A DNA stretch of 64,000 nt from Amycolatopsis sp. WAC 01376 (GTDB lineage Bacteria > Actinomycetota > Actinomycetes > Mycobacteriales > Pseudonocardiaceae): assembly GCF_003947415.1 (NCBI RefSeq), contig NZ_QHKL01000002.1, positions 124,001 through 188,000 of the forward strand, given 5' to 3'. Of the stretch, positions 57,525-58,905 are shown piece by piece. The stretch's first letter is position 1; the number at the start of each line of letters is the position of its first letter. The notes beneath the pieces were generated by a model. That model made no database searches. It worked only from the letters and a program-made list of their open reading frames with translations, and was not told the DNA's origin. Made by a program: the position numbers and the translations under genes.

Positions 57525-57594
57525 GGACGCGACCAGACGTGTGATCTGCGCCTACGCGCTTGCTTTCATCCAGTGGGATCGGTTTTACTCAGTG

Positions 57595-57692
57595 AACCAT
57601 CCCGAGCGACTGAGAGACCTGGCTCGCCGAAGTCGCAGCAACCACCCTCCACAGGGCAGGTGCTACAGCCAGGACCGATGGAGGCTGTGCCT
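57595..57692 (+). ncRNA. SAM riboswitch candidate (SAM-I/IV clan)
   Basis: Closing stem P1 is CCATC (57597-57601) with GATGG (57677-57681). P2 is GCGACT (57606-57611) with AGTCGC (57631-57636), enclosing GAGAGACCTGGCTCGCCGA, which resembles the S-box k-turn region. The conserved GCAACC follows (57638-57643), P3 is CCCT/AGGG, then GGTGCTA (57659-57665), the SAM-pocket strand. P4 of SAM-I is missing and a small AGGC-TGT-GCCT hairpin follows P1, so it may be a SAM-IV or SAM-I/IV variant form. It precedes a MetN-like gene, the expected context. Confidence 0.75.
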
Positions 57693-57817
57693 AATGAACA
57701 GGGTCACCCACCCGCTCCTGCTGACCAGGCGACGCGTTGTCGATGAAGGTCGCCGCACGGTAAGTGCGTGTCGACGCTCCACCGTTACTGCCTGAGTTCT
57801 TTCCCTTATCTCTGAAT

Positions 57818-57834
57818 CCGTCCGTTCCGGACGG
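57818..57834 (+). terminator. Possible expression platform of the riboswitch
   Basis: CCGTCCG TTC CGGACGG, a perfect 7-base stem with a 3-base loop, 30 bases before the MetN-like start. Only two T follow, so it could be a weak terminator or a structure that hides the start region. Confidence 0.4.
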
Positions 57835-57864
57835 TTACTCGGTGACGGTCGGCGCGCTCGAAAG

Positions 57865-58905
57865 ATGCAGCGCCCCATGCGCATGGAGCCCTTCGTGATC
57901 ACTGTCGAAAACCTGTCCAAATCCTTTCCCCTCAACGGAAATCCCGTCGTCGCCCTGCGCGATGTGAGCGTGGACATCCAAGCGGGCTCGCTGTTCGGAG
58001 TCGTGGGTCCGGCCGGCTCCGGCAAGTCGACCCTCGCTCGTTGCATCGGCCTGCAGGAGCGCCCCGACCGCGGCGTCGTCCGGCTCGACGGCCTCAACAC
58101 CGGGACCCTTGACGGACGTCGTCTTCGCGAGATCCGCCGCCAGGTCGGTGTCGTGAGCACCAAGCCGGAATTGCTCGCCGAGCGCACCATCGCCGGCAAC
58201 ATCGCTTCGCCGCTCGAACAGCTCGGCCTCGACGGTCCGCAGCGCCGCAACCGGGTCGGCAACCTGCTCGACCTGGTCGGGCTCACTCCCCGGGCGGGGC
58301 AGCGGCCGGGCGACCTGACCGAGGGGCAGTTGCGCCGGGTGGCCATCGCCAAGGCTCTCGCCGCCGGGCCGTCCGTGCTCTTGGCCGACGACCCGACCGC
58401 GGGTGTGCAGCCCGAGGAGTCCGGCGCGGTCCTGACCGTGCTCGACCGGGCGCGTGCCGAGCTCGGAGTCACCGTGCTGCTCACCACTCCCGACGCCGGC
58501 GTGGTCCGCCGTGTCTGCGATGACGTCGCGGTACTGGAGGCCGGGGCGATCATCGAACGGGGAACCGTGCTCGACCTGGTCTCCGACCCGAACAGCCGGA
58601 CCGCGCAGGCGCTGCTTCCCGCGATCGAGACCGGGCGGGCGCAGGCCTCGAAGTACGACCGCGCGGTGGATGTCGTGCTCGTCGGCTTCGCTTCGGTCGG
58701 TGCGCTGCTGCCGGAAGCCGCCGGTCGCTTCGACGTCGAACTCGCCACCATCGGCGGCGGCCTGACCCGGATCGGTGACACGCCGGTCGGCCGGTTCCGC
58801 CTCGGTGTGCGCGGTGAGCGCGCGGACGCCGCGCTCGCCTGGATCGCCGAACGCGGCGGCCACGTGACCCACCCGGTCCGCGGACCGCAGGGCGTCGCCG
58901 CCTGA
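57865..58905 (+). CDS. Orphan MetN-like ABC ATPase with NIL-type C-terminus
   Basis: 346 residues. VENLSKSF, VVGPAGSGKSTLARCIG (Walker A), a Q-loop near VGVVSTKPELL and a C-terminal ferredoxin-like domain (about 265-335; VDVVLVGFASVGALLPEAAGRF to GRFRLGV) that matches the NIL methionine-sensing domain of MetN. The signature reads LTEGQLRRVAIAKAL instead of LSGGQ, and Walker B reads VLLADDPTAGV, with Asp where the catalytic Glu is expected. No MetI or MetQ gene is near. Start could also be ATG 57877 or 57883. Expression is probably SAM-controlled. Confidence 0.82.
   Translation: MQRPMRMEPFVITVENLSKSFPLNGNPVVALRDVSVDIQAGSLFGVVGPAGSGKSTLARCIGLQERPDRGVVRLDGLNTGTLDGRRLREIRRQVGVVSTKPELLAERTIAGNIASPLEQLGLDGPQRRNRVGNLLDLVGLTPRAGQRPGDLTEGQLRRVAIAKALAAGPSVLLADDPTAGVQPEESGAVLTVLDRARAELGVTVLLTTPDAGVVRRVCDDVAVLEAGAIIERGTVLDLVSDPNSRTAQALLPAIETGRAQASKYDRAVDVVLVGFASVGALLPEAAGRFDVELATIGGGLTRIGDTPVGRFRLGVRGERADAALAWIAERGGHVTHPVRGPQGVAA

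Follow-up and report, generated by a model that had tools for sequence, protein, structure and literature searches.

What does an RNA that resembles a SAM riboswitch regulate when the gene behind it encodes a lone MetN-like ATPase? This question is raised by a locus of Amycolatopsis sp. WAC 01376 that lies in a stretch of 64,000 nucleotides, which was analyzed as a whole and is referred to here as the window. The features of the locus are collected in Table 1. The comparisons below are based mainly on 104 MetN-like loci (the window and 103 fetched loci), and on 80 loci from named organisms, which are the best 80 of 437 relatives from a genome scan and include some of the same species as the rest of the sample.

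Table 1. Features of the riboswitch–leader–MetN locus (window coordinates).
Feature	Position	Strand	Basis or remark
SAM-I type riboswitch aptamer without P4 (Rfam RF00162)	57594..57684	+	cmscan 52.9 bits, gathering threshold 44.4
Pseudoknot, P2 loop CCTGG (57618-57622) with J3/4 CCAGG (57669-57673)	57618..57673	+	sequence
Shine-Dalgarno GGAGG of leader ORF	57680..57684	+	first two bases within the P1 3' strand (57677-57681)
Leader peptide uORF, MNRVTHPLLLTRRRVVDEGRRTVSACRRSTVTA*	57694..57795	+	motif in 102/103 aptamer-bearing loci by script; L038, a variant, by eye
Hairpin CCGTCCG-TTC-CGGACGG, possible attenuator	57818..57834	+	between uORF and metN
Shine-Dalgarno GGAG of MetN-like gene	57885..57888	+	sequence and relatives
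Degenerate MetN-NIL orphan	57895..58905	+	likely GTG start, 336 aa; longest ORF from 57865, 346 aa

A SAM-I Type Aptamer Without P4

In a cmscan of the whole window, RF00162 matched the leader of the MetN-like gene with an E-value of 2.5e-9. An earlier note on this DNA had proposed a SAM riboswitch from P1, P2, GCAACC, and GGTGCTA occurring in the right order. All of these were located in the sequence (P1 CCATC at 57597-57601 with GATGG at 57677-57681, P2a GCGAC/GTCGC, then GCAACC and GGTGCTA), and the score above the gathering threshold assigns the proposed riboswitch to the SAM-I type. RF00162 was the SAM-clan model that passed its threshold at the aptamer. SAM-IV (RF00634) had no match there in a genome search to E 10 in which 150 of 3340 candidates were scored, and the SAM-I-IV variant (RF01725) had none in the genome to E 10 with 150 of 174 candidates scored. 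A SAM-IV or SAM-I-IV identity is unsupported by these genome searches, with the caveat that the window scan (E up to 1) omitted one weaker overlapping SAM-clan match, the family of which was not named.

The P4 helix is part of the canonical SAM-I form, and the Rfam threshold can be reached without it. The absence of P4, which the earlier note had found odd, extends to the relatives: the linker from GGTGCNH to CGAYGG measures 10 nt in all 103 aptamers found by pattern among the 104 loci, and we therefore refer to this RNA as a P4-less SAM-I variant. The sole locus without the aptamer core (L095) is a second, unlinked MetN-like copy. RF00162 was also matched in all 20 related loci submitted to Rfam, and the expected conservation of P1, P2, GCAACC, and GGTGC in relatives was seen in the 20 aligned aptamers as well as in the 103 found by pattern. 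Over the 20 aligned aptamers, 99.2% of the cells are paired in a structure composed of P1, P2, P3, and the pseudoknot between the P2 loop and J3/4. Two-sided changes occur in 3 of its 26 pairs, a low number because the aptamer sequence is nearly invariant; the pseudoknot is identical in 20/20 and gives no covariation signal. Judged by sequence and pairing, the window RNA is a SAM-I type riboswitch and is predicted to bind SAM.

Two RF00162 matches were found in this genome, namely, the window aptamer and a stronger one (L001, C22:252765-252897; 77.2 bits). The latter lies directly before a threonine synthase-like gene (by eye) and has a purine-rich site just past P1. The genome also contains a strong SAM-IV riboswitch (C30:190336-190450; 119 bits). 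Three metNIQ-containing stretches from other families of the order (L161, L171, and L173) also include SAM-IV riboswitches.

A Conserved Leader ORF Behind the Aptamer

The earlier note had placed the riboswitch 180 bases in front of the MetN-like gene. The order along the DNA stands, but the ribosome-binding site adjacent to P1 is that of a 33-codon leader ORF and not that of the ATPase. By its position, the Shine-Dalgarno sequence that overlaps P1 is thus predicted to serve this conserved ORF rather than the ATPase directly. Most of the leaders displayed have GATGGAG at this site, and two (L096 and L144) have GATGGGAG instead. The peptide was recovered in 91/104 loci with a first, stricter pattern (see Table 1 for the later counts), and the aptamer and the uORF are both present in 80/80 named loci.

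With its motif LTxRRVVDxxRRTxxxC, the peptide is similar to Cys leader peptides. When 182 leaders (131 of them distinct within the motif) are compared, entropy averages 0.49 at the first, 0.28 at the second, and 1.34 at the third codon position, and variation concentrated at the third position is a coding signature of the uORF. RNA structure inside the uORF was considered and rejected, because RNAalifold found no consensus structure within it over the 131 distinct sequences. The final Cys codon departs from the third-position variation: it is TGT in 182/182 leaders, and the other Cys position has TGC in 64 and TGT in 12.

The window peptide has no match to any NCBIfam model. The best score on NF042933 (cut-off 45) among five family peptides (including that of the window) was 16.9 bits, and NF042934 listed none of the five. 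Elsewhere in the same genome, a match to NF042933 below the cut-off, LTQRRAVDLCRVRSSLC, precedes a DUF gene and a rhodanese-like gene (L261; gene names by eye), and this peptide passes NF042934 (29.3 vs. 27 bits). Another leader-like ORF of this genome (L263) scores 39.4 bits on NF042934 (cut-off 27).

When 394 genomes of the class were searched by pattern, the aptamer type turned up at 13 places in 10 genomes. Ten places are outside the family; seven of these (L264, L266-L270, and L276) are above the Rfam threshold, and three (L265, L274, and L275) have no Rfam listing. In other members of the class, such as L266, L268, and L269, the aptamer directly serves a main gene. In another family of the order (L175), an aptamer of 50.7 bits is followed by MWHGQISWARRHIDLCRTGTALCR, a peptide of the RRHIDLCR..ALC type, and then by an LSGGQ-type metN with metI and metQ behind. 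In a third family (genome G524), two aptamers are followed by HVDLCR peptides (...RLHVDLCRVGACSCTCR in L270 and ...RIHVDLCRLAGSTCRS in L276), and a third aptamer of the same cluster has no HVDLCR-type ORF behind it. On NF042934 (“putative leader peptide”; cut-off 27), the peptides of L175 (30.0) and L276 (36.6) are above the cut-off and that of L270 (16.5 bits) is below it. The HVDLCR motif is typical of Cys leaders; a literature search on it found no paper. These out-of-family peptides behind the same aptamer type are the strongest support for reading the uORF as a leader peptide. The G524 cluster as a whole (L277, G524:C4:120500-138500) holds three SAM-I riboswitches in 18 kb together with ABC-transporter-like genes, and two of the riboswitches have leader ORFs of the HVDLCR type.

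Between the uORF and the MetN-like gene, a perfect stem of at least 6 bp was found in 66/102 leaders vs. 14.1% of base-composition shuffles, and one of at least 7 bp in 32 of 102 leaders vs. 4.2% of the shuffles. The hairpin has no U-run, and it is missing or weaker in 36/102 leaders. The MetN-like gene has a Shine-Dalgarno sequence of its own: in all 97 loci with a located start, GGAG is no more than 18 nt away from this conserved start (7/104 starts were not located). The distance from the uORF stop to the start of the MetN match ranges from 37 bases (L070) to 227 bases (L139); therefore, no stop-start overlap was seen.

A MetN-Like Protein With Lost Catalytic Sites

The product of the downstream gene had been described as a MetN-type ATPase with a NIL-like domain. 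Pfam bears this out, with 91.4 bits for ABC_tran and 34.8 bits for NIL (cut-off 24) on ORF 57865-58905, and the closest solved structures by alignment are MetN. This NIL domain is the only one in the genome. No metI or metQ was found between the MetN-like gene and ispE, which starts 121 bases downstream of the ORF, as the earlier note had stated for the neighborhood, and neither was detected genome-wide above cut-off. A relative's MetI used as query found nothing at E ≤ 1e-3, a weak result for a search with no positive control, and the MetQ Pfam family had one match below its cut-off (24.6 vs. 27 bits). The searches made also found no second MetN with metI and metQ elsewhere in this genome.

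The suggestion of methionine uptake holds to the extent that a MetN-like gene does follow a SAM-clan switch, but an uptake role cannot be presumed, because the protein is far below the cut-off of the MetN equivalog TIGR02314 (198.9 vs. 499.7 bits, a comparison that lacks scores of the intact syntenic relatives), 6/11 catalytic sites are lost, and MetI and MetQ were undetected. The sites lost are the Q-loop Gln, two signature residues, the Walker B Glu (Asp in the window protein), the D-loop Asp, and the H-loop His; Walker A is intact.

Presence of metI and metQ Among the Relatives

Matches at E ≤ 1e-50 were found in 132/150 genomes of the family, although two of these (approximately 1e-52) probably represent different MetN proteins. 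Among the named relatives are Amycolatopsis (up to 99% identity), Prauserella, Saccharomonospora, Lentzea, Kutzneria, Umezawaea, Kibdelosporangium, and others. The gene is flanked by ksgA and ispE, with KsgA found in 99/104 and IspE in 101/104 fetched stretches; among the best 80 of 437 named loci, the corresponding counts are 80/80 and 79/80.

Downstream metI and metQ were found in 36/104 loci (for one pair, the identification relies on matches to NF008049 and NF008285 that are both below cut-off), and all 36 proteins have the 11 catalytic sites. In the other 68 loci, in which metIQ was not found downstream, 66 proteins are degenerate and two are intact; one of these stretches (L054) ends 143 bases past the gene and is not judgeable, and another (L066) ends after 417 bases with ispE already reached. 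The 66 degenerate proteins lack the first Gly of LSGGQ (66), the Q-loop (64) and H-loop (64) residues, the catalytic Glu (52), the Ser of LSGGQ (42), the D-loop residue (27), and the Walker A Lys (5). Both intact exceptions belong to one genus, a third member of which (L040) has metIQ, and they are therefore read as recent metIQ loss. The named loci have the same pattern: 20 have metIQ (Lentzea, Umezawaea, Kutzneria, and one named Nocardia), all with canonical LSGGQ, DEPTS, and THD, and the other 60 have no metIQ and never these three motifs together (for L221, this refers to only 305 bases after the gene).

Fisher's exact test for metIQ against intact catalysis gave p = 6e-26 over the 104 loci, a value that ignores kinship. 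Among independent pairs on the tree, five agree, none disagrees, and one has no difference (p = 0.0625), such that the link rests on few independent events. On a species tree of 100/104 loci made by a quick method, seven metIQ changes are needed and six are forced by well supported branches. In a MetN tree rooted on other families, the intact forms branch at the base, and the number of changes required is smaller than on the species tree. Several long branches (with a warning) in the MetN tree make the number of independent metIQ losses uncertain; by our reading, there may have been at least three. An unlinked second MetN with metI and metQ was found in at least six metIQ-less genomes (G026, G053, G100, G111, G144, and G146), so loss of the local partners does not equal loss of methionine import everywhere.

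The 20 outgroup loci from the order have metN together with metI and metQ (LSGGQ in 19 and LSVGE in L164), and ksgA and ispE were not found near metN. We infer that the window gene descends from a metNIQ operon controlled by a SAM riboswitch, such as Lentzea, Umezawaea, and Kutzneria have in this position. Replacement of metIQ by a conserved downstream permease was examined and rejected: inserted genes were found in three of the four loci checked (L117, L121, L129, and L130) and are absent from the window. These inserted genes, which separate the orphan from ispE in L117, L121, and L129, code for an MFS-type transporter and a TetR-type regulator (by eye). Two genomes (G052 and G012) have a second, very degenerate MetN-like paralog without the SAM core (L098 and L099), and between ksgA and ispE, G012 also retains an intact metNIQ (L065).

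Selection on the Orphan

The dN/dS values (NG86) range from 0.012 to 0.212 in 20 orphan pairs and from 0.038 to 0.175 in 14 pairs with intact sites; KsgA has 0.068–0.219 in the same orphan pairs. These pairs were hand-picked among close relatives, several have a common member, and the KsgA value of L071-L072 was ignored as an apparent alignment failure. The low dN/dS of the orphan pairs disfavors a pseudogene. In 4/6 within-genus comparisons with the window, the C-terminal 82 codons have zero amino acid change. When dN of these codons was compared with that of the ATPase part in pairs without a common member (nine orphan and four intact pairs dropped), it was lower in eight, higher in two, and equal in one of 11 orphan pairs, and lower in three and higher in seven of 10 pairs of intact importers (orphan vs. 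intact, p = 0.07). The mean site entropy is 1.11 for the ATPase and 0.99 for NIL in orphans, and 0.47 and 0.71 in intact proteins. These values are only suggestive of NIL being more tightly constrained than the ATPase domain in orphans.

A protein that has lost its partners and its catalytic residues, yet is tightly conserved, suggests a probable role other than transport. In Escherichia coli, methionine at the C2 domain of MetN inhibits, and N295A abolishes this inhibition (excerpts of PMC12357092). The equivalent position has A in 40, S in 14, T in 6, and another residue or a gap in 6 of the 66 degenerate proteins, and A in 13, S in 12, N in 10, and D in 1 of the 36 intact ones. Since N295 is unconserved in the family even in intact importers, the ligand is not deducible from E. 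coli MetN, and this residue was dropped as an uninformative marker of retained methionine sensing. The most economical role of the orphan is probably that of a regulator in sulfur amino acid metabolism that binds ATP and, via NIL, a sulfur metabolite.

Proposed Explanation and Alternatives

We propose, with a probability of roughly 0.6, that a P4-less SAM-I switch determines whether a Cys-type leader peptide is translated, and that this leader controls a MetN-like protein that was formerly a transport ATPase. The sequences themselves show the aptamer, the overlap of P1 with the Shine-Dalgarno sequence of the uORF, the conserved uORF, the recurrent hairpin, the joint absence of metIQ and of catalytic residues, and purifying selection on the orphan. 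At high SAM, P1 would be stabilized and the ribosome-binding site of the uORF hidden (OFF), and at low SAM, the uORF would be translated. Ribosome progress over its Arg and Cys codons would then determine whether transcription is stopped, either by the downstream hairpin or by Rho-dependent termination, and expression would thus report SAM as well as charged tRNA-Cys. The ancestral operon may have been a metNIQ under a SAM riboswitch and a Cys-type leader, acquired early in the family or before it arose. In several lineages, Amycolatopsis among them, metI-metQ may have been lost from this position; catalysis would then have decayed with the RNA control unchanged, and the MetN-NIL protein would have been retained for a non-transport job under strong purifying selection.

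The uORF could instead merely relay translation to metN, through coupling or Rho shielding, with a peptide that senses nothing. Such a relay by termination-reinitiation is known behind the riboswitch of ppe2 in Mycobacterium tuberculosis (excerpts of PMC11260477), and the family peptides do fall below the cut-offs of the leader-peptide models. We nevertheless consider it rather unlikely here, given that R-R-x-V-D, R-R-T, and C are conserved over 182 leaders with varying third positions and that the uORF stop lies at least 37 bases ahead of the MetN match.

Two other alternatives concern the protein. An ordinary SAM-I switch might control a methionine-type ATPase that is still active and is paired with an unlinked, unrecognized permease: the Walker A Lys is retained in 63/68 metIQ-less proteins, a permease of another family would be missed by the MetI query, and several relatives retain another metNIQ. 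This is very improbable in our view, as the Q-loop, the signature, the H-loop, and usually the catalytic Glu are changed jointly, which is the case in 0/36 metIQ-bearing proteins, and a homodimer of degenerate subunits would have two defective sites. Alternatively, the MetN-like ORF may be a decaying relic, in which case what matters would be the riboswitch and leader alone, or read-through into ispE. The missing catalytic residues, the start of ispE 121 bases downstream, and one relative (G148, L097) in which the match is limited to residues 7-256 would fit such a relic, but no internal stop was found among the matches listed, and the low dN/dS of the orphan pairs together with the unchanged C-terminal codons leave it only a slim chance.

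Returning to the gated leader and its former transport ATPase, a broader and somewhat doubtful extension would be that Pseudonocardiaceae repeatedly made an importer ATPase into a dead, ligand-binding regulator, expressed only at low SAM and limiting cysteine via a two-input RNA device. A mostly listing-level literature search found no report of a SAM riboswitch gating a leader peptide or of an orphan MetN controlled by a riboswitch. The loci form a natural series under constant riboswitch control, from intact metNIQ, through metIQ gone with an intact ATPase and partial decay, to full decay, in which a transporter motor can be watched turning into something else. The system offers a direct test of whether riboswitches gate amino-acid-sensing leader peptides, and knowing the role of the orphan would explain a protein of many genomes in an antibiotic-producing family.

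Comparison With Known Systems

The aptamer shares with SAM-I (S-box, RF00162) the P1 helix, P2 with inner bulges, P3, the pseudoknot between the P2 loop and J3/4, and the core residues. It differs in that P4 is absent from all relatives (103/103) and that the Shine-Dalgarno sequence belongs to a leader peptide. A ribosome-binding site within the 3' side of P1 is itself a known SAM-I design (excerpts of PMC2258182). Like MetN of the metNIQ importer (TIGR02314), the window protein has the ABC-NIL domain order, and metI and metQ follow its intact counterparts in the same position; unlike MetN, the window protein is below the equivalog cut-off and has neither the catalytic residues nor the partners.

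With the actinobacterial Cys leaders (NF042933, Ms5788A, and NF042934), the window leader has in common a short Arg/Cys peptide, and it shares the pattern LT.RR.VD..R..S..C with the L261 peptide of its own genome before the rhodanese-like gene. However, the window family is below both cut-offs, and its Shine-Dalgarno sequence is held by a riboswitch rather than the leader being leaderless. In Streptomyces lividans, metNIQ is preceded by the leader peptide metL, and threonine genes are preceded by a SAM riboswitch; metL is unlike the window leader in sequence, and the excerpts of PMC8079986 name no SAM riboswitch there. In the parts available of a 2005 survey (PMC1262725), no conserved RNA structure was found before methionine operons in the Actinobacteria covered, and Cys leader peptides were described in mycobacteria. 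The motifs in excerpts of PMC8632094 and PMC2864571 are other than that of the window. The B12 riboswitch-uORF relays of metE and ppe2 in M. tuberculosis differ from the window in ligand, aptamer class, uORF peptide, and downstream gene, but share with the mechanism proposed for it a masked Shine-Dalgarno sequence of a translated uORF, which for ppe2 is needed for the downstream gene (excerpts of PMC11260477).
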